Shown here: positions 39,319 to 61,886 of the stretch, piece after piece
Position numbering within the stretch: position 1 is the first letter of the stretch
Layout: the number at the start of each line of letters is the position of its first letter
From: Cytophagales bacterium
Lineage (GTDB): Bacteria; Bacteroidota; Bacteroidia; Cytophagales; Cyclobacteriaceae
DNA length: 64,000 nt
Direction of reading: 5' to 3'
Assembly (NCBI GenBank): GCA_025359125.1
Contig: JANYHI010000042.1
Coordinates: 1-64,000 of the forward strand
The notes under the pieces: generated by a model
Told to the model about the DNA's origin: nothing
Databases searched by the model: none
The model's input: the letters and a program-made list of their open reading frames with translations, nothing else
Position numbers and translations under genes: made by a program

Positions 39319-40620
39319 ATGCGTCAACAATTATTAAGTGAGGGAGCGAAAGAGCTGAGCTATGAAATACGAGAGATCGTAAAGAAGGCAGAGCAAATTA
39401 AAAATTTGGGAAAGGAAATTCAGTGGGAAAATATTGGAGATCCAATTCAAAAGAATCATTTTATTCCTGCATGGATCAAACAAATTATTGCTGATCTTTC
39501 TTTGCAGAACGACACGTATGGCTATTGTTCATCAAAAGGAATTTTAGAAACACGTCAGTTTTTGGCTACTCAAAATAATTCGCGCCAAGGCGCACAAATT
39601 ACACCCGATGATATTTGTTTCTTCAACGGCTTGGGTGATGCCATCGCAAAAGTATATCAATACATCGCACCCACCTCGCGCATTATTGGCCCATCGCCTG
39701 CTTACTCAACACACTCTAGTGCCGAGGCAGCACATGCTAGCAATGAGCCACTTACCTATAAGTTAGATCCCGATAATAAATGGTACCCTGATCTCGATGA
39801 CTTGTATAATAAAGTCAAGTACAATCCCAATGTAGTGGGTATCCTTATTATCAATCCGGATAACCCAACAGGTATGGTCTATCCGTTAGAAACATTGAAA
39901 CGGATTGTGGCCATCGCGCGCGAGTTTAATTTATTTTTGATTTGCGATGAGATCTATTTGAACATCATCTATAATGGGGCTCGCGCATATGCATTGGCCG
40001 AAGTAATTGAAGATGTTCCGGGTATAGCTATGAAAGGCATTTCGAAAGAACTTCCTTGGCCTGGCGCGCGCTGCGGTTGGATGGAATATTACAACCGCAA
40101 TAAAGATGTTGACTTCAATCGTTTATGCAACGCTATCGACAATGCAAAAATGATTGAGGTTTGTTCTACTAAACTTCCGCAGTTGGCAATTCCCAAAATT
40201 TTGGGCGACTCTCGCTTTAAAGCTTATCGAGAAGAAACGAACCAGAAGATTGGCAAGCGCAGCAAAATAATTTGTGATATTTTTAGAACGGTGCCACAGC
40301 TAACTTTTAATGAAACATTTGGCGCATTTTATAATACTATTATTTTTAGAACGGGTGCATTAAAGCCTAATCAAAAAATAGAAATTCAGGATGCTAAAAT
40401 TAAAGCGCTAGTAGAAGAATGGACAGCCCAAGAAATGCCTTTTGATAAACGCTTTGTCTATTACTTGCTTGGCGCGAAGGGTATTTGCGTAGTACCTATC
40501 TCTTCATTTTGTTCAGAGCTTCAAGGCTTTCGTGTTACGTTGCTGGAAGAAAATGAAGAGACGTTGGTTAAAACATTTACAGCGATTAGTGATGGGATTG
40601 TAGAGTATTTAGGTTCTTAG
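39319..40620 (+). CDS. Class I/II pyridoxal-phosphate aminotransferase
   Basis: The 433-residue protein has NPDNPTG near residue 180, CDEIYLNI, and SKELPWPGARCGW with the cofactor lysine. It is close to alanine/aspartate-type aminotransferases of fold type I. The substrate cannot be told, but its place just before the ilv cluster would suit a role in amino acid synthesis. It is separated from ilvE by the attenuator and probably has its own transcript. Confidence 0.9.
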   Translation: MRQQLLSEGAKELSYEIREIVKKAEQIKNLGKEIQWENIGDPIQKNHFIPAWIKQIIADLSLQNDTYGYCSSKGILETRQFLATQNNSRQGAQITPDDICFFNGLGDAIAKVYQYIAPTSRIIGPSPAYSTHSSAEAAHASNEPLTYKLDPDNKWYPDLDDLYNKVKYNPNVVGILIINPDNPTGMVYPLETLKRIVAIAREFNLFLICDEIYLNIIYNGARAYALAEVIEDVPGIAMKGISKELPWPGARCGWMEYYNRNKDVDFNRLCNAIDNAKMIEVCSTKLPQLAIPKILGDSRFKAYREETNQKIGKRSKIICDIFRTVPQLTFNETFGAFYNTIIFRTGALKPNQKIEIQDAKIKALVEEWTAQEMPFDKRFVYYLLGAKGICVVPISSFCSELQGFRVTLLEENEETLVKTFTAISDGIVEYLGS

Positions 40621-40729
40621 TTAACCGCTTACCTAACATTCGTTATCTCAAAAACCAAAACTTTTTTCTTCACTTTCGTTGATTACCACAACAAAATTTT
40701 GCCATCTTGCACTAGCACAAACAGAGCAG

Positions 40730-40834
40730 ATGAAAAATATTAATTTTTTAAAAGTAAAAATGAATCAGGTTGCCCTGATCCATAATTTGCTTGTGCTAAT
40801 TATTGTCATTATTCTCCGAAAACCGGGGCTGTGA
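40730..40834 (+). CDS. ilv leader peptide
   Basis: The 34-residue peptide has 17 Leu, Ile or Val residues, ten of them in a row (LLVLIIVIIL, residues 20-29). Its stop is at 40832-40834. A terminator hairpin follows at 40856-40886 and ilvE starts at 40926. This is the classical layout of amino acid attenuation: scarce charged Leu/Ile/Val tRNA stalls the ribosome in the run. A second ATG at 40760 could also start it. Confidence 0.85.
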   Translation: MKNINFLKVKMNQVALIHNLLVLIIVIILRKPGL

Positions 40835-40894
40835 CGATTTTGTAAAAGAAATTTTAAACCGTCCCGCCAAAAAGCGGGACGGTTTTATTTTATA
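40764..40894 (+). promoter_or_regulatory. Transcription attenuator of the ilv operon
   Basis: A first hairpin, ATCAGG (40764-40769) with CCTGAT (40774-40779), could act as a pause site. The terminator is CCGTCCCGC (40859-40867) with GCGGGACGG (40874-40882), followed by TTTTATTTTAT. CGGGGC (40824-40829) can pair with GTCCCG (40861-40866) and so prevent the terminator. A ribosome stalled in the Leu/Ile/Val run leaves CGGGGC free, while one at the stop codon three bases beyond it covers it. The pairing is my reading and needs folding analysis. Confidence 0.78.
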
Positions 40895-40903
40895 GCTACC
40901 ACA

Positions 40904-40920
40904 ACAAACTAACGATTGTT
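40904..40920 (+). promoter_or_regulatory. 17-base element shared by ilvE and leuC leaders, copy 1
   Basis: ACAAACTAACGATTGTT lies five bases before the ilvE ATG. The identical sequence lies directly before the leuC GTG (60457-60473). It contains the short inverted repeat ACAA/TTGT. It may be an operator or an RNA element shared by the two branched-chain operons. Confidence 0.55.
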
Positions 40921-40925
40921 TCAAC

Positions 40926-41819
40926 ATGATAGAATATTATAACGAACAGACGGTACTTTTTCTGGATGGAAAATTTGTAAAAGCCAACGAGGCGAAAATG
41001 GATTTGTTCGGACAAACGTTTCACTATGGCTACGGAGTGTTTGAAGGGATTCGTTCGTACGAAACGGTGAATGGTGTAAAAGTATTTAAGCCTCGTGCGC
41101 ACTTCGAGCGACTTCAACGCAGTTGCCAACTGATGGGTATTCCATTTACCTACAGCGTGGATGAGCTCATTCAATTAACCTATCAGGTTTTAGAAAAAAA
41201 TAACTTGGCCAATGCCTACATCCGTCCATTGGTTTTTTGTGGCCCTAATATGGAACTTACTTCACCTTCCAATGTATCGTTAATGATCACCGCGTGGGAG
41301 TGTGAGCAACATCCTACCCTAAATCCAAAACGCATTTGCATTTCTTCATTTCAACGCCCTAATCCAAAAGCGGTAACTGTAGAAGCGAAAGTGTGTGGCT
41401 TGTATGTGAACTCAATCTTAGCTACCACCGAAGCAAAAAGACGTGGCTTTGATGATGGATTGTTGTTAGACTTAAGTGGATTTGTTGCTGAAGGTCCTGG
41501 TGCTAATTTCTTTTACGAGAAAGAGGGCGTGATTTATACACCACCTGCAACCAGCATCTTGCCGGGCATCACTCGCAAAACGGTTATTGAAATTTGTAAG
41601 GAGTTGGAATTGCCTGTAGAAGAAAAATACTTTAAGCCCGAAGAATTATTTGAGGCAGACAGCGCATTTTTCTGCAGTACCATGCAAGAGATAGTAGCAA
41701 TAGAATCCTTCGAACGTCAGTCAGTAACAAAAGTATGGAAAGATTCGATGGGAGCGTTGATTCAAGAGACTTACAGAAATCTTGTATTGGAGAAAAGTTA
41801 TTCGTATGTAATTGTATAA
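40926..41819 (+). CDS. ilvE: Branched-chain amino acid aminotransferase
   Basis: A fold type IV aminotransferase of 297 residues. FGQTFHYGYGVFEGIRSYET is near the N-terminus, the cofactor lysine is in VEAKVCGLYVNSILA, and the glutamate loop is VAEGPGANFF. It does the last step to Leu, Ile and Val. It is the first structural gene after the attenuator. Confidence 0.94.
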   Translation: MIEYYNEQTVLFLDGKFVKANEAKMDLFGQTFHYGYGVFEGIRSYETVNGVKVFKPRAHFERLQRSCQLMGIPFTYSVDELIQLTYQVLEKNNLANAYIRPLVFCGPNMELTSPSNVSLMITAWECEQHPTLNPKRICISSFQRPNPKAVTVEAKVCGLYVNSILATTEAKRRGFDDGLLLDLSGFVAEGPGANFFYEKEGVIYTPPATSILPGITRKTVIEICKELELPVEEKYFKPEELFEADSAFFCSTMQEIVAIESFERQSVTKVWKDSMGALIQETYRNLVLEKSYSYVIV

Positions 41820-41904: not shown

Positions 41905-43584
41905 ATGGAACTAAATAAATACAGTCGCACTATCACCCAAGATCCAACACTTCCTGCATCGCAGGCGATGTTATACGGAATTGGATTGACGGAACACGAT
42001 TTAAAAAAGGCACAAGTAGGAATTGTGAGCACTGGTTTTGATGGCAACACGTGCAACATGCATTTGAATGCGCTGGCGCAAGAAGTAAAGACTGCCGTCT
42101 GGGATCAGGAACTGGTTGGTTTAATTTTTCATACAATTGGAGTGAGCGATGGGATTTCGAACGGCACTGAAGGCATGCGCTATTCGTTAGTGAGCCGAGA
42201 AGTAATTGCAGACTCCATTGAAACTGTTTGTGGCGCACAATATTACGATGGGTTAATTGCCGTAGTGGGTTGTGATAAAAATATGCCTGGCTCTGTGATG
42301 GCAATGGGAAGATTGAATCGTCCTGCTATTATGGTATATGGAGGAACGATAGCTGGAGGACATTACAAAGGGAAAGAGTTGAACATCGTTTCAGCTTTTG
42401 AAGCACTGGGTGAAAAAATTCAAAATAAACTTTCGGATGAAGACTTTAAAGGTATCATCCAAAATGCTTGCCCTGGTGCAGGCGCATGTGGTGGCATGTA
42501 CACTGCCAATACAATGGCATCTGCTATTGAAGCGTTGGGCATGTCGCTTCCGTACTCTTCTTCTAATCCGGCATTGAGCAAAGAAAAATCTGAAGAGTGT
42601 GCTGAAGCAGGTAAAGCAATTCGCCTGTTGTTAGAAAAGGATTTAAAACCGCGCGACATCATGACGGAGAAGGCATTTGAAAATGCAATTACTATTGTGA
42701 TGGTATTGGGTGGATCTACCAATGCCGTGTTGCATTTAATTGCGATGGCTAAATGTGTGGGCGTTAAAATCACGCAAGAAGATTTTCAGCGCATCTCAGA
42801 TAAAACTCCGCTGATCGCGGATTTGAAGCCGAGTGGAAAATACCTGATGGATGCACTTCATAAAATTGGTGGGGTGCCATCGGTAATGAAATATTTATTG
42901 CAAAAAGGTTTTCTCCATGGCGATTGCATCACCGTTACAGGTAAAACCATAGCTGAGAATATCACCAAAGCAAAAAATCTTGATTTTGAAAAACAAGATA
43001 TTATTGTTCCGCTCGAAAGGCCGATTAAGAAAACGGGTCACTTACAGATTCTCTACGGTAATCTAGCAGAGAAGGGATCAGTAGCAAAAATTACGGGCAA
43101 GGAAGGCGAACGCTTTAAAGGCACCGCTCGTGTTTTTAATGGTGAGTTTGAATTGACAGATGGTATTCGGTCGGGTAAAATAAAAGAAGGCGATGTAGTA
43201 GTGATACGATATGTAGGCCCGAAGGGTGCACCGGGAATGCCAGAGATGTTGAAGCCAACGAGTTTGATTATGGGATCGGGCTTAGGTAAATCTGTTGCGT
43301 TGATAACGGATGGAAGATTTTCAGGAGGCTCTCACGGATTTGTGATTGGTCACATCACACCGGAAGCAGCGGAGGGCGGATTGCTTTCTTTAGTGGAAGA
43401 TGGCGACTGGATTGAGATTGATGTAAAGAAGCATCAGATCAATTTATTAGTAGATGAAAAAACAATAGCGATCAGGCGATCGCTCTATAAAGCACCAGCT
43501 TCTCGTGCAACGAGTGGCGTACTTTATAAATATGCAAAACAAGTAAAAACGGCTGCCGATGGATGCGTTACTGACGAAGACTAA
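41905..43584 (+). CDS. ilvD: Dihydroxy-acid dehydratase
   Basis: The 559-residue iron-sulfur enzyme has [20 protein letters not shown] and [20 protein letters not shown] with the cluster cysteines, and [19 protein letters not shown]. It dehydrates dihydroxy acids in Val and Ile synthesis. Its end overlaps ilvB by 26 bases. Confidence 0.97.
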
Positions 43585-45316
43585 GGAAAAAGTGGCTGCG
43601 CCCACACTTAAAAAAATTACCGGATCAGAAGTACTGCTACGTTGCCTAGTAGCCGAAGGTGTTGATGTACTTTTCGGTTATCCGGGTGGTGCTATCATGC
43701 CGGTGTATGATGCGCTCTATTCGTATGCCGATAAGTTGAATCATATTTTAGTTAGGCATGAGCAAGGTGCGATACATGCTGCACAAGGTTTTGCGCGTGT
43801 AAGCGGACAAGTGGGAGTGGCATTGGCAACGTCTGGCCCTGGTGCTACCAATTTAGTAACAGGCTTAGCTGATGCGTTGATTGACTCAACACCAGTAGTG
43901 TGTATCACAGGCCAAGTGTTTGCGCACTTGTTAGGTACCGATGCATTTCAAGAAATTGATGTGATAAATACAACGCTTCCGGTAACGAAATGGAACATAC
44001 AAGTAACCGAAGCAAAAGACATTGCACCTGCCGTGGCGAAAGCATTTTATATTTCTAAGACGGGCAGGCCCGGTCCCGTGCTGATCGACATCACTAAAAA
44101 TGCTCAGAACGAATGGATCGAAGAGTTTGAATACGAAAAGTGTGAATCGATCAGAACATACAAACCAAAACCTGTTGTTCAGAAATCACAAATTGAAGTA
44201 GCTGCAGAATTAATAAATAACGCAAAGCGTCCTTATATTTTAGCCGGGCAAGGAGTATTACTTTCGGGTGCCACAAAAGAATTGATTGCTTTCTCAGAAA
44301 AAACAGGAATACCTGTTGCTTCTACTTTGTTAGGATTAGGCGCCTTTCCACAAGATCATCCTAACTATGTGGGCTACCTCGGCATGCACGGAAACTATTC
44401 CACTAACGTGAATACGAACGAGTGTGATGTATTGATAGGATTAGGGATGCGTTTTGATGATCGTGTAACTGGTAACGTAAGTAAGTATGCCCAACAAGCT
44501 AAGATCATTCATATTGATATTGATAAAGCAGAGATCAATAAAATTATAAAGACAGACGCATTTATTTTAGCCGATGCAAGAGAAGCATTAATTGCTTTAA
44601 TTGAAAAATGCGATTCAAAAAAGCATATAGAGTGGATGGATACGTTTCATCAAATGGATAAAATTGAATACGAGAAAGTTATTCGACATGAGTTTGAGCC
44701 GAAGAGCGAAGAGTTGATGATGGCTGAAGTAATTAATTGTCTTTCTAATAAAACGAATGGAGAGGCAATTGTGGTGACAGATGTAGGGCAACACCAAATG
44801 GTAACTTCACGCTATTATAAATTTAAGAATCCACGCACCAATGTTACTTCAGGTGGTGCGGGTACAATGGGATTTTCTTTACCTGCAGCCATGGGTGCTA
44901 AGCTGGCCATGCCACATAAGCAAGTAGTTGCTGTAATTGGCGATGGTGGTTATCAGATGACGGTGCAAGAATTGGGTACGATTATGCAGTACAAGATTCC
45001 TGTTAAAATATTGGTGTTGAATAATAATTTTTTAGGAATGGTTCGGCAGTGGCAACAACTATTTCATGAAAAACGCTATTCATTTACTGAAATGCAGAAT
45101 CCGAATTTTGTAAAAATTGCAGAAGCATATGACATCCCCGCAAGGAAAGTTGTAAAACGAGAAGAGTTGGATTTGGCAATACAAGAAATGTTGGATGCAA
45201 AGACTTCTTATTTCTTAGAAGCCGTGGTTGGGAAGGAAGATAATGTTTTTCCGATGGTGCCGGCTGGCGCTGGTGTGGGGGAAGTAATTTTGGAAATACC
45301 GAACAGTAGCAAGTAG
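43559..45316 (+). CDS. ilvB: Acetolactate synthase large subunit
   Basis: The 585-residue thiamine-diphosphate enzyme has the catalytic glutamate in [31 protein letters not shown] and the cofactor region [20 protein letters not shown]. The ATG at 43559 lies inside ilvD in another frame, so translation is coupled. Confidence 0.97.
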
Positions 45317-45391
45317 TAAGATATAAGTAACAAGAAAGTCATTGTACCAAGATTCTCACGTCCTGCTACTTACGTCTAACATCTAAAAAAT
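45317..45391. repeat. Spacer ilvB-ilvN with weak inverted repeat
   Basis: GTAGCAAGTAG near the left end partly pairs with CTGCTACTTAC near the right end. It is less perfect than the other spacers of the cluster. Confidence 0.3.
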
Positions 45392-45682
45392 ATGAAAAAA
45401 GATTTTACACTGGAGTTGGCTGCGGATAATAATTTTTCAGTATTGAACCGAATTATTAATATCCTCAACAGGCGCAGGGTGCGTATTAAAAAATTAATGG
45501 CGCATGAAAATGAAAATGACTTTAGAAGAGGCGGTGTGATTTTGTTGCTCCATACCACTGAAGAAATGATTGAGAAAGTCTCAAATCAGTTGGAAAAACT
45601 AATAGAAGTTGAAAACGTAAGGTCGCGTGAAGGAAGTGATTTATATTTTGAACTAAGTGAACGGATTGTAGATGTAGACTAA
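45392..45682 (+). CDS. ilvN: Acetolactate synthase small (ACT) subunit
   Basis: The 96-residue protein is a single ACT domain (LELAADNNFSVLNRIINILN, RRVRIKKLMA) like the short E. coli IlvM/IlvN. It regulates the large subunit by valine feedback. The second domain found in longer IlvH proteins is missing, which is usual for Bacteroidota of this type. Confidence 0.9.
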   Translation: MKKDFTLELAADNNFSVLNRIINILNRRRVRIKKLMAHENENDFRRGGVILLLHTTEEMIEKVSNQLEKLIEVENVRSREGSDLYFELSERIVDVD

Positions 45683-45788
45683 AGGTTAAAAGTTATTAAT
45701 TAATTGTAAGAGACTTTTTAATCGATTGATAACTGATATAACTATTAATGAAAAGCAGATAACTAATAAATAACTAACAACTAATAAA
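45683..45788. repeat. Palindromic AT-rich spacer ilvN-ilvC
   Basis: It is built of words such as GTTATTAATTAATTG at the left and ACTAATAAATAACTAAC at the right that are partly inverse to one another. No gene. Confidence 0.4.
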
Positions 45789-46859
45789 ATGGCAAAGATT
45801 AATTTTGGAGGAACGATAGAAGAAGTGGTGACTCGTGAGGAGTTTCCGATGGAGATGGCGGTGAATGTTTTGCAAAACGAAACGATCGCGATTATTGGAT
45901 ATGGTGTGCAAGGCCCAGCCCAAGCGTTGAACTTGCGCGATAATGGATTCAATGTAATTGTGGGTCAACGTAAGGGATCTAAGACATGGGATAAAGCGGT
46001 TGCTCATGGATGGTTGCCCGGAGAAACTTTATTTGAAATTGAAGAGGCTGTAAAAAAAGGAACCATCATTCAGTTCTTACTTTCGGATGCAGGACAGATT
46101 GCACTGTGGCCATCCATCAAACAATATATTACTAAAGGCAAAACACTTTATTTCTCTCACGGTTTTGGAATTACATTTAAGGATCAAACTGGAATTATCC
46201 CCTCGCCAGATGTGGATGTTATTTTGGCTGCACCAAAAGGTTCAGGCACTTCTGTACGCAGATTGTTTTTGCAAGGAAAAGGAATCAACGCAAGTTATGC
46301 TGTGTTCCAAGACGCTACCGGAAATGCCAAGGGGAAAGCTATCGCATTAGGTATTGGTGTAGGTGCAGGTTATTTATTTGAAACCGATTTCAAGAAAGAA
46401 GTTTATTCTGATTTGACGGGAGAGCGCGGTACGTTGATGGGAGCAATTGCCGGAATCTTTGAAGCGCAGTATGAAGTGTTGCGCTCGAAAGGCCATACAC
46501 CATCCGAAGCATTTAATGAAACCGTTGAAGAACTTACTCAAAGCCTAATGCCTCTTGTGGCTGAGAATGGAATGGATTGGATGTATGCTAACTGTTCTAC
46601 CACAGCACAGCGTGGTGCATTAGATTGGAAGAAGAAATTTAAAGCAGCCACGCTTCCTGTTTTCAAAGAATTATATGATAGTGTAGCAAGCGGTGCCGAA
46701 GCAAAGCGTACCATTGATACCTGTAGCAAACCAGACTATCGCGAAAAGCTAGCGGAGGAATTGAAAGAACTACGCGACAGCGAATTATGGCAAGCAGGTG
46801 CTGCCGTGCGTTCATTAAGACCTGAGAAGGCAACAGTAGAAGCGAGCATGATAAATTAA
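45789..46859 (+). CDS. ilvC: Ketol-acid reductoisomerase
   Basis: The 356-residue protein has IAIIGYGVQGPAQALNLRDNG as the nucleotide-binding loop, FSHGFGITFKDQ, and the acidic metal site in DLTGERGTLMGAIAGIFEAQ. It isomerises and reduces acetohydroxy acids. It is slightly longer than class I enzymes (about 330). Confidence 0.95.
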   Translation: MAKINFGGTIEEVVTREEFPMEMAVNVLQNETIAIIGYGVQGPAQALNLRDNGFNVIVGQRKGSKTWDKAVAHGWLPGETLFEIEEAVKKGTIIQFLLSDAGQIALWPSIKQYITKGKTLYFSHGFGITFKDQTGIIPSPDVDVILAAPKGSGTSVRRLFLQGKGINASYAVFQDATGNAKGKAIALGIGVGAGYLFETDFKKEVYSDLTGERGTLMGAIAGIFEAQYEVLRSKGHTPSEAFNETVEELTQSLMPLVAENGMDWMYANCSTTAQRGALDWKKKFKAATLPVFKELYDSVASGAEAKRTIDTCSKPDYREKLAEELKELRDSELWQAGAAVRSLRPEKATVEASMIN

Positions 46860-46938
46860 AATTAGTTGAAAGTTGATAGTTATTGGTTGTTTGTGAAAAG
46901 CTTCTAATAACTATCAACACGCAACTATCAATATTAAA
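46860..46938. repeat. Palindromic spacer ilvC-ilvA
   Basis: GTTGATAGTTATT and AATAACTATCAAC are perfect 13-base inverted arms around about 20 bases. A strong hairpin without a T run. Confidence 0.65.
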
Positions 46939-48189
46939 ATGGTTTCCGTACTCCATCAACAAATCGATATCAACCGTGCTCATCTAATTTTAAAAGATGT
47001 AGTACTTAAAACACCTTTGCAGTTTCACCGAAAACTATCGGAGAAGTTTGGTTGCGAAATTTATTTGAAGCGCGAAGACTTACAAGTAGTCCGCTCCTAC
47101 AAAATTCGTGGGGCTTATAATTTAATTCAGAGCTTAACTGTAGAGCAATGTGAGCGTGGAGTAGTGTGTGTGAGTGCAGGAAACCACGCACAGGGAGTTG
47201 CCTTCTCTTGCAAGTTGTTGAGTATTAAAGGAGTCATTTACATGCCTGCCATCACACCCAAACAAAAAATTAATCAAGTGAAAATGTTTGGGAACGGTTG
47301 GGTAGATATTGTTTTAGTGGGCGATACGTTTGATGAATGTCAATCTCATGCGCTCGCATTTACAAAAGAAAAGAACATGATTTTTATTCCCCCCTTTGAT
47401 CATGAGAAAGTGATTGAAGGCCAAGGAACAGTGGGCAAAGAAATTTTAGAAGAGCAATCGAATATTGATTACGTGTTTGTTCCGGTAGGTGGTGGTGGGC
47501 TATCTGCTGGGATGGGATGTTATTTTGCTACTTATGCTCCGCTTATAAAAATGATTGGGGTAGAGCCGCAAGGGGCACCATCAATGAAGGAAGCTTTAAA
47601 AGCCGGCAAGCCAATTATTCTCGATTCTATTCAACGCTTTGTAGATGGGGCTTCTGTAAAAAAAGTAGGCGACCGGAATTTTGAAATTTGCAAAGATGCA
47701 TTGGCCGATATGTTGCTAGTTCCGGAAGGGAAAGTAAGTTCTACCATTCTGCAATTGTACAATGAAGATGCGATTGTAGCGGAGCCAGCGGGAGCGCTTT
47801 CCATTGCAGCTTTAGATCAATATGCAGAACAGATCAAAGGAAAAAAAGTTGTTTGCATTTTAAGCGGTGGCAATAATGACATTGATCGGATGCAAGAGAT
47901 TAAAGAGCGCTCGTTACTATATGAAGGCCTCAAACATTATTTTATTGTTCGCTTTGCACAGCGCCCGGGTGCCCTCAAAGAATTTGTCAATCATATCTTA
48001 GGCCCTACTGATGATATTGTTCGGTTCGAATTTATTCAGAAACACAATAAAGAAACAGGCCCTGCATTAATTGGCATCGAAGTAAAATCTAAAGATGACT
48101 TCATTTTTTTGATTGAACGGATGAATAGCCACAAGCTCAACTATACGCTCGTGAATCAAAACGAGAATCTTTTCGAGTACTTGGTCTGA
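46939..48189 (+). CDS. ilvA: Threonine dehydratase
   Basis: The 416-residue enzyme makes 2-oxobutanoate from threonine, the entry to isoleucine. The cofactor lysine is Lys55 in REDLQVVRSYKIRGAYN, and the phosphate loop is PVGGGGLSAGMG. A C-terminal regulatory domain (from about HYFIVRFAQRPGALKEFVNH) is single and shorter than in E. coli. Confidence 0.94.
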   Translation: MVSVLHQQIDINRAHLILKDVVLKTPLQFHRKLSEKFGCEIYLKREDLQVVRSYKIRGAYNLIQSLTVEQCERGVVCVSAGNHAQGVAFSCKLLSIKGVIYMPAITPKQKINQVKMFGNGWVDIVLVGDTFDECQSHALAFTKEKNMIFIPPFDHEKVIEGQGTVGKEILEEQSNIDYVFVPVGGGGLSAGMGCYFATYAPLIKMIGVEPQGAPSMKEALKAGKPIILDSIQRFVDGASVKKVGDRNFEICKDALADMLLVPEGKVSSTILQLYNEDAIVAEPAGALSIAALDQYAEQIKGKKVVCILSGGNNDIDRMQEIKERSLLYEGLKHYFIVRFAQRPGALKEFVNHILGPTDDIVRFEFIQKHNKETGPALIGIEVKSKDDFIFLIERMNSHKLNYTLVNQNENLFEYLV

Positions 48190-60358: not shown

Positions 60359-60473
60359 CATCTTCGTAACGAAATAAAATTAACGGTTCGCCCCGTGATA
60401 TAATCTCAAAAAAACGAGAATGTATCACGGGGCGCTTCTGTTCTAATAGGTCTTCTACAAACTAACGATTGTT
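60342..60473 (+). promoter_or_regulatory. Structured leader of leuCDBA, attenuator candidate
   Basis: A hairpin with 19-base arms and two mismatches spans 60389-60407 and 60416-60434 (CGCCCCGTGATA with TATCACGGGGCG at its base). TTGTAGAAGA (60342-60351) is the exact complement of TCTTCTACAA (60451-60460), and its GAAGA part can instead pair with TCTTC (60361-60365). The 17-base element shared with ilvE follows at 60457-60473. No long T run follows the hairpin, so translation control is as likely as termination. Confidence 0.5.
60457..60473 (+). promoter_or_regulatory. 17-base element shared by ilvE and leuC leaders, copy 2
   Basis: ACAAACTAACGATTGTT ends directly before the GTG start of leuC. 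It is identical to 40904-40920. Confidence 0.55.
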
Positions 60474-61886
60474 GTGAGCGAGAAAAAACCAAGAACAATT
60501 TTTGAAAAAATCTGGGACTCGCACGTGGTGAAACGTGCCGAAGGATATCCTGATGCTTTATTTATCGACCGTCATTTTATTCATGAAGTAACAAGCCCGC
60601 AAGCATTTGATGGATTAAAAAAAAGAGGCATTAAAGTTTTTAATACATTAAGAACTACTGCCACTGCCGATCACAATGTTCCTACGAAAGATCAACACCT
60701 TCCTATCAAAGAAGCATTAAGTCGCCATCAGGTAGAAACGCTGCGTACAAACTGTAAAGAATTCGGTGTAGAGTTATATGATTTGGGTCATCTTTACCAA
60801 GGCATTGTTCACATCATCGGTCCAGAGTTAGGGTTAACATTACCCGGCATGACCATTGTGTGTGGCGATAGTCACACGAGTACACACGGGGCATTTGGAA
60901 ATATTGCATTCGGTATTGGTACCAGCGAAGTAGAACAGGTCTTAGCTACGCAGTGTATTTTACAATATCGCCCCAAGACAATGAAGATTGAGATCAACGG
61001 TCAGATAGGAAAAGGTGTGGTCAGCAAGGATATTATTCTTTATATTATTTCAAAAATATCAGCCAGTGGAGCCACTGGCTTTTTTGTGGAATACGCTGGC
61101 GATACGATTCGCAATTTATCGATGGAGGCGCGTATGACTATTTGCAACATGAGCATTGAGATGGGTGCCCGTGGCGGATTGATTGCACCTGATGAAACTA
61201 CTTTCAACTATATTAAAGGAAGAAAATTTGCACCACAAGAAGTTGAATTTGAAAAGAAAGTTGCTGAGTGGAGAAAACTTGTAACGGATGATGATGCGGT
61301 GTACGATGTAGAGTTGAAGTATGATGCAGCCGATATTGCTCCGATGATCACCTATGGAACGAATCCGGGAATGGGTATGAAAGTTACGGATTACATCCCA
61401 ACAGTTGAGGAACTAAAAGAAATCAGCGAGCAAGGGTCATTTAAAAAATCTTTAGAATATATGGGGCTTGAGCCGGGATCACAATTACTTGGCAAATCCA
61501 TTGACTACGTTTTCATTGGCAGTTGCACCAACGCGCGAATAGAAGATTTAAGATTGGTGGCAAAAATGGTGAAAGGAAAAAAGAAAGCTAACAATGTGGA
61601 GGTGTGGGTAGTGCCCGGATCTAAACAAGTAGAAGCACAAGCAATACAAGAAGGACTAGACAAAGTTTTTGAAGCAGCAGGTTTTGAATTGCGGAGCCCC
61701 GGCTGTTCTGCCTGTTTAGGCATGAATGAAGATAAAGTGCCGGCCGGAAAATATTGCATCAGCACTTCTAACAGAAATTTTGAAGGAAGGCAAGGTCCAA
61801 AATCAAGAACTTTTTTAGCAAGCCCATTAAGTGCAGCTGCGGCTGCGATAACGGGGAAGGTGACGGATGTAAGAGAATTTAAGTAG
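60474..61886 (+). CDS. leuC: 3-isopropylmalate dehydratase large subunit
   Basis: The 470-residue protein has [33 protein letters not shown] and [17 protein letters not shown] with the cysteines of the iron-sulfur cluster. It acts with LeuD in leucine synthesis. The start is GTG at 60474, with [19 protein letters not shown] as usual N-terminus. Confidence 0.97.

Follow-up and report, generated by a model that had tools for sequence, protein, structure and literature searches.

The enterobacterial operons ilvGMEDA (ilvL), ilvBN (ivbL) and leuABCD (leuL) are preceded by attenuators with leader peptides. Ribosome-coupled attenuation requires that polymerase and ribosome travel together, and Bacteroidota mostly begin translation without Shine-Dalgarno signals. 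Attenuators or leader ORFs before ilv genes are described in Actinobacteria (ilvBNC; PMC1262725, PMC11857589, PMC10272879), i.e. in another phylum, and we liken these to the present locus by description and not by sequence. For Flavobacterium psychrophilum, a 2021 paper refers in one sentence to strong clues of leader-peptide attenuation upstream of amino-acid operons (PMC9723704). This species shares phylum, proposed mechanism and operon type with the case studied here and belongs to another order; the section holding that sentence names no ilv element, shows no covariation and points to a supplementary table. Moreover, sORFs in Bacteroides thetaiotaomicron 5' UTRs are mentioned as reminiscent of leader peptides (PMC7366714), and Bacteroid-trp (RF01692; PMC2864571) is listed as a Bacteroidetes cis-regulatory RNA candidate, linked to trp by its name. 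Bacteroid-trp differs from the present element in that it has no match in the window (the whole stretch of 64,000 nucleotides that was analysed), in the trp and his loci of the same genome or in 20 related ilv loci. Our literature searches yielded neither an ilv attenuator of Cytophagales nor a paper on tandem leader-peptide attenuators. The original prediction had called this kind of attenuator rarely described in the phylum; documentation is indeed thin, but the sentence in the 2021 Flavobacterium paper already suggests the mechanism. The mechanism belongs to textbook knowledge, and earlier work had hinted that the phylum has it. The present ilv element, by contrast, did not come up in our literature searches and matched no Rfam family, and the operator pair around it is less explained.

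With high confidence we read the region upstream of ilvE in the window as an attenuator that controls transcription of ilvEDBNCA through ribosome coupling; it is real, conserved and very probably functional. The leader ORF, its codon run, the terminator, the alternative pairing, their conservation, the match of leader ends to their own terminator arms and, in a folding model, the dependence on ribosome position are seen by sequence and computation. The locus resembles ilvL, ivbL and leuL in having a short leader with a Leu/Ile/Val run, an intrinsic terminator and an alternative pairing set by the ribosome, and in serving the same pathway. Unlike in the enterobacterial ilv and leu attenuators, the antiterminator strand in the window lies at the leader stop codon, and most relatives are, according to our model, without an effective protective 1:2 hairpin. 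Phylum and promoter type also differ, operator-like sites lie on both sides, and the likeness is one of layout and does not stem from sequence comparison.

The leader region upstream of ilvE

The leader, terminator, promoter and gene features of the window given below are on the forward strand. The leader ORF (40730-40834) has 34 codons followed by TGA and reads MKNINFLKVKMNQVALIHNLLVLIIVIILRKPGL; an ORF rich in Ile, Leu and Val is also present in relatives. Codons for the amino acids that the operon makes are over-represented in it: leader codons 20-29 (40787-40816; LLVLIIVIIL), the control codons, form a row of ten that all specify Leu, Ile or Val. Its stop codon is at 40832. Between the leader ORF and the first structural gene there is an intrinsic terminator hairpin (40856-40885; 12 pairs and a loop of 6; -21.8 kcal/mol by itself), followed by TATTTTAT with the U-rich tract at 40886-40893. 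The 5' arm of this hairpin (40856-40867) doubles as the 3' strand of the antiterminator, the 5' strand of which, CGGGGC (40824-40829), is situated just ahead of the leader stop codon and can form six pairs, including one G-U, with GTCCCG (40861-40866). In addition, a protective hairpin (segment 1:2; 40802-40838; -13.7 kcal/mol) has its 5' arm within the control codons and its 3' arm spanning the stop codon. The gene for the branched-chain aminotransferase, ilvE (40926-41819), starts 40 nt past the terminator hairpin and is followed by ilvD, ilvB, ilvN, ilvC and ilvA (41905-48189). On the basis of adjacency these six genes are presumed to be one operon with ilvE as its first gene; ilvE scores above the NCBIfam cut-off of TIGR01122 and ilvN under its NCBIfam cut-offs. 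The 34-codon ORF with ten straight Leu/Ile/Val codons, the strong terminator with ilvE soon after and the pairing of CGGGGC near the stop with the terminator arm were all found as the original prediction had described them. For its gene row, ilvEDBNC, the order stands while the end does not, as the row runs on to ilvA.

Upstream of the ORF, the blocks TTG (40679-40681) and CATCTTG (40703-40709), separated by a 21 nt spacer, make up what we take to be a Bacteroidota-type promoter (40679-40709), and similar TTG ... CTTG blocks were seen by eye at many of the 46 loci that were compared for the upstream operator-like site (see below). With 12 genes of the window as reference, the control codons include three rare ones (GTC, 4% of Val; CTC and CTA, 7% and 8% of Leu, respectively); on the opposing side, the run uses ATT, the most frequent Ile codon, four times.

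The 231-nt region 40700-40930 folds with -63.8 kcal/mol compared to -41.1 kcal/mol for shuffles (z -4.97) and better than 200 of 200 dinucleotide shuffles. Units of this kind were recognized by a detector that looks for a terminator-like site shortly preceded by the end of a short ORF in which a stretch of ten codons is rich in Leu, Ile and Val. When both strands of the window were scanned (19 terminator-like sites on the forward and 18 on the reverse strand), a unit with at least 8 of 10 Leu/Ile/Val codons appeared at this place only. Among 80 related loci found by ilvE, which share kinship and are not independent draws, the last 450 nt before ilvE held a unit in 46 at the threshold of ≥8 and in 67 at ≥6. 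The control flanks of these loci (546,217 bases with 113 terminators) gave no unit at ≥8 or at ≥7, and at ≥6 a unit at five terminators, about 4%, for which reason individual cases at this threshold may be false. The first version of the detector accepts uninterrupted stems only and misses leaders that are visible by eye (e.g. L046, L047, L099, L104 and L108). The shuffle folds, the window scan and the control flanks lead us to reject a chance origin of leader and terminator.

A DNA search of the draft genome (3.68 Mb, 87 contigs) with the 231-nt leader region gave a single place. Leaders with other codon runs were noted in the same genome. Specifically, a leader ORF reading MNVTVNIMMWWWHKSNLDRCMAAI, with WWW, and then a terminator occupy bases -156 to -27 relative to the presumed ATG start of trpE, a gene so called for its anthranilate-synthase domain (PF04715); judged from its sequence this leader (L220) is probably a trp attenuator. 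Before hisG (L219) a leader ORF reading MKYTQNIFRQHHATSLLGGFMF, with HH, is likewise followed by a terminator and is possibly a his attenuator. These trp and his loci gave no match to any Rfam family, Bacteroid-trp included.

Alternative pairing and the position of the ribosome

Tight coupling of transcription and translation in this phylum is assumed in the mechanism that we propose, and its transcription start, translation of the ORF, stalling kinetics and response to amino acids are what we infer. Transcription would begin near 40715 and a ribosome would translate the leader behind the RNA polymerase. A shortage of charged tRNA for Leu, Ile or Val would stall the ribosome at codons 22-29 and leave the strand 40824-40829 free; this strand would pair with the nascent 5' arm of the terminator, resulting in read-through into ilvE. 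With ample amino acids the ribosome would instead reach the stop codon at 40832 and cover 40824-40829, and the terminator would form. If no ribosome is loaded, the leader-internal hairpin would tie up the antiterminator strand such that termination is favoured, as predicted for the window and not for most relatives.

The evidence for the alternative pairing comes foremost from a comparison, referred to as the own-arm test, in which all leader ends were combined with the 5' arms of all terminators. The sample started from 157 loci (111 found by ilvE and 46 by ilvD), from which 43 without a unit and 11 near-duplicates were dropped, leaving 103. The mean duplex energy of leader ends with their own arms was -14.5 kcal/mol compared to -10.9 kcal/mol with the arms of other loci, and none of 5000 permutations reached the observed mean, the best giving -12.0 kcal/mol. 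Examples of such pairs, located at the leader stop codon or directly ahead of it, are GAGGTG-CGCCTC (L075), GGGAATGG-CCATTCCC (L031) and GTGAGA-TCTCAC (L085). Exceptions, with a rank of the own arm above 0.5, were 15 of the 103 loci, and for eight of the 103 the rank was above 0.7 (L013, L056, L086, L128, L133, L134, L137 and L138). The window's own pair ranks 0.51, i.e. as ordinary among arms, because the arms within its family are alike.

For covariation we used an alignment (A1) of 46 of 60 loci, from which near-identical and ill-placed ones had been removed. For the terminator, 98.2% of the cells were paired with 24 double-change cells in three pairs, which none of 500 shuffles reached, although its double-change pairs were equalled in number by 165 of the 500 and its pair types by 459. 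The antiterminator was paired in 83.1% of the cells with seven double-change cells in four pairs, again reached by none of 500 shuffles. Slid antiterminator controls gave at most 53% pairing, but two of them equalled or exceeded the double-change counts (five pairs at -2 and seven cells at +1 vs four and seven). The protective hairpin was paired in 71.6% of the cells, and its slid versions exceeded it in double-change cells (33 and 27 vs 24). For the alignment of ilvE upstream regions proposed with the original prediction, the codon run is kept and the pairing of terminator and antiterminator is high, whereas the double-change counts of the antiterminator are no better than those of slid controls. 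That antiterminator and terminator exclude each other is supported by the own-arm test together with the percentage paired, with double-change counts at or below those of the slid controls; the case is carried by the own-arm test, and covariation counts alone are insufficient.

The effect of the ribosome was modelled on RNA ending at the terminator loop by shifting a 30-nt ribosome footprint codon by codon. In the window, the model probability of the 5' arm of the terminator being paired to upstream RNA was 0.67-0.76 with the A site at codons 22-29 and at most 0.22 at codons 1-21, fell to 0.53 at codon 30 and 0.22 at codon 31, and was about 0 from codon 32 through the stop; without ribosome it was 0.17. 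Eight of the ten codons of the run therefore switch the fold. The remaining two, codons 20 and 21, gave no switch in the main model, and codons 18-21 were intermediate (about 0.3-0.5) when the RNA was shortened at its 5' end. The masking suggested with the original prediction thus has the outcome expected from it, the antiterminator with the ribosome at codons 22-29 and its loss with the ribosome at the stop. When the stretch from run to terminator was shuffled, four of 150 shuffles equalled the contrast between run and stop, and none of the 150 equalled both contrasts. Masking close to the arm also cuts pairing in shuffled RNA (0.57 in the run and 0.26 at the stop), and the contrast across loci is therefore partly built in.

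Across 92 loci, the mean antitermination in the model was 0.74 for ribosome-free RNA and 0.78 with the ribosome in the run, and dropped to 0.31 with it at the stop. In 85 of the 92 the run mean was above the stop value, and in 38 it was above the ribosome-free value. From these means, what recurs is the loss of the antiterminator when a ribosome occupies the stop codon. Most of the 92 loci already favour antitermination as ribosome-free RNA, and the protective hairpin, strong in the window, is without effect in most of them. An enterobacterial-like layout, as originally predicted, is seen in the window, but its four-segment form is not general, with ribosome-free RNA antiterminated in most of the 92 loci. 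At equilibrium the full-length RNA always gave the terminator in the model, and the switch therefore depends on the timing and kinetics of transcription. It is by modelling that the fold depends on where the ribosome stands, at the control codons or at the stop.

Occurrence in Bacteroidota

The nearest named relatives of the window are metagenome-assembled Flammeovirgaceae, Cyclobacteriaceae and Cytophagales. Within family genomes, the first 29 loci fetched had a unit in 25 cases at ≥6 and in 18 at ≥8, and for 20 loci picked from the next places the numbers were 17 and nine, respectively. Relatives with a unit at ≥6 include, by record titles, Flavobacterium, Crocinitomicaceae, Chitinophagaceae, Xanthovirga and Chryseotalea. 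The N-terminus and the length of the leader differ among relatives, while the run and its nearness to the terminator are kept. Related genomes without codon run and terminator had been named as an outcome speaking against the original prediction; the relatives retain both, and their leader ends match their own arms.

An ilvD match at E 1e-100 was present in 209 of 296 genomes of the phylum. The unit is not universal and was detected in 26 of 50 phylum-wide ilvD loci at ≥6, with the view upstream of ilvD limited to 2.5 kb or less; of these 26, one or more (L131 among them) are doubtful. The 111 ilvE loci include identical pairs that are counted twice (L001/L002, L004/L069, L017/L107 and L018/L102). 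The best reading of these data is that ribosome-coupled attenuation is also present in several further Bacteroidota lineages. An attenuator signature in several lineages would constitute a natural reporter of transcription-translation coupling there, and for annotation it suggests the rule that such ORFs are probably regulatory leaders and not orphan genes.

Taken over all 181 ilv loci scanned at ≥6, 138 had at least one unit and 13 had two in series. The 13 reduce to 11 distinct tandem cases, as L018 is the same as L102, and L027 has a first unit that on visual inspection resembles coding sequence. These tandem leader-ORF and terminator units with branched-chain amino acid (BCAA) codons, before ilvE or ilvD, are found at L081, L084, L085, L088, L097, L102, L106, L130, L135, L136 and L226, and at L136 and L081 the two units are near copies.

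Operator-like sites and rival explanations

An operator-like site, CTAACATTCGTTA, with the core AAC-N4-GTT is located upstream of the promoter (40633-40645), and at least eight of nine core bases of this site were present in 46 of 46 loci compared to 146 of 9200 mononucleotide-shuffled windows. A downstream operator-like site, ACAAACTAACGATTGTT (40904-40920), lies between the terminator and ilvE and has a second exact copy (60457-60473) directly before leuC, which starts at 60474. With at most one mismatch the downstream site was present at 63 of 111 ilvE loci, the remaining 48 having four or more mismatches, and at 15 of 30 leuC loci of the family, the others having at least three. When 39 genomes were searched with the pattern ACAAACTAACNNTTGTT, 17 genomes, all belonging to one genus, yielded 20 exact matches, eight of them directly before ilvE and 12 before leuC; the reversed pattern, used as control, gave one. 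The window's genome has two exact copies, before ilvE and leuC only, together with five copies that differ by one or two mismatches vs three for the control. The spacing between the upstream and downstream sites is 249-295 bp (53 loci). We read the paired AAC-N4-GTT sites as a putative DNA operator pair bracketing promoter and attenuator. Ten further window proteins were scanned against Pfam and matched no regulator family.

Three other explanations of the locus were weighed. The string LLVLIIVIIL resembles a membrane segment and a terminator behind a gene is ordinary, and the ORF might hence encode a real small hydrophobic membrane protein with a terminator that merely ends upstream transcription. 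However, among relatives the run stays, close to the terminator, in leaders that differ in N-terminus and length, and the leader end tracks complementarity to its own terminator arm, on which grounds we reject a coding microprotein. A terminator of an upstream gene is rejected from the arrangement in genome G094, where leuC and ilvE are divergent (L208) and a terminator precedes ilvE (L005); with a divergent neighbour this terminator cannot serve an upstream gene. Overall we regard this combination as extremely unlikely. Control by a metabolite riboswitch, T-box or other known RNA family would have a terminator and an alternative fold in common with the locus. Yet the sole Rfam match in the window at gathering score is a tRNA far away, the 11 weak matches in 40600-40960 are all under their gathering scores, 20 related loci searched against Rfam gave one tRNA only and, by eye, the alignment has no conserved aptamer-like block. 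The Rfam amino-acid leader families and Bacteroid-trp, specifically, gave no gathering-score match in the window, at L219 and L220 or in the 20 related loci. As, apart from tRNAs elsewhere, neither the leader region of the window nor the 20 loci has a gathering-score match, a known Rfam family is rejected, and we give RNA-family control of the terminator hardly any credence.

A DNA-binding regulator acting on the AAC-N4-GTT operators could also control the locus, with the hairpin setting basal read-through only. This would fit the conserved sites flanking promoter and attenuator, the exact downstream sites that in the 39 genomes occur solely before ilvE and leuC, and leuC itself, which has a site and a hairpin and is without a clear leader ORF. 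It leaves the codon run and the matched antiterminator arms unexplained, and both occur in lineages without the downstream site; as the sole control we consider it very unlikely. An operator layer and an attenuator layer are compatible and can coexist. We tentatively suggest, at somewhat less than even confidence, a two-layer control of BCAA genes in which a new regulator would act on the paired AAC-N4-GTT operators, with possible looping of the leader region and with leuC sharing the operator, and the attenuator would act between them; elsewhere in Bacteroidota the attenuator would be duplicated in series for steeper control.

In the nine leuC loci read, the region ahead of the gene showed no leader ORF with an evident run of Leu codons. 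In the window, a long hairpin (60389-60434) with a poor T tract lies just before leuC and is followed by the operator-like site. At L208-L210 the ilv and leu operons are divergent with operator-like sites in their common intergenic region. Finally, a site with one mismatch (L146, 1501-1517) precedes a gene that, from reading its sequence, we name acyl-CoA dehydrogenase-like.
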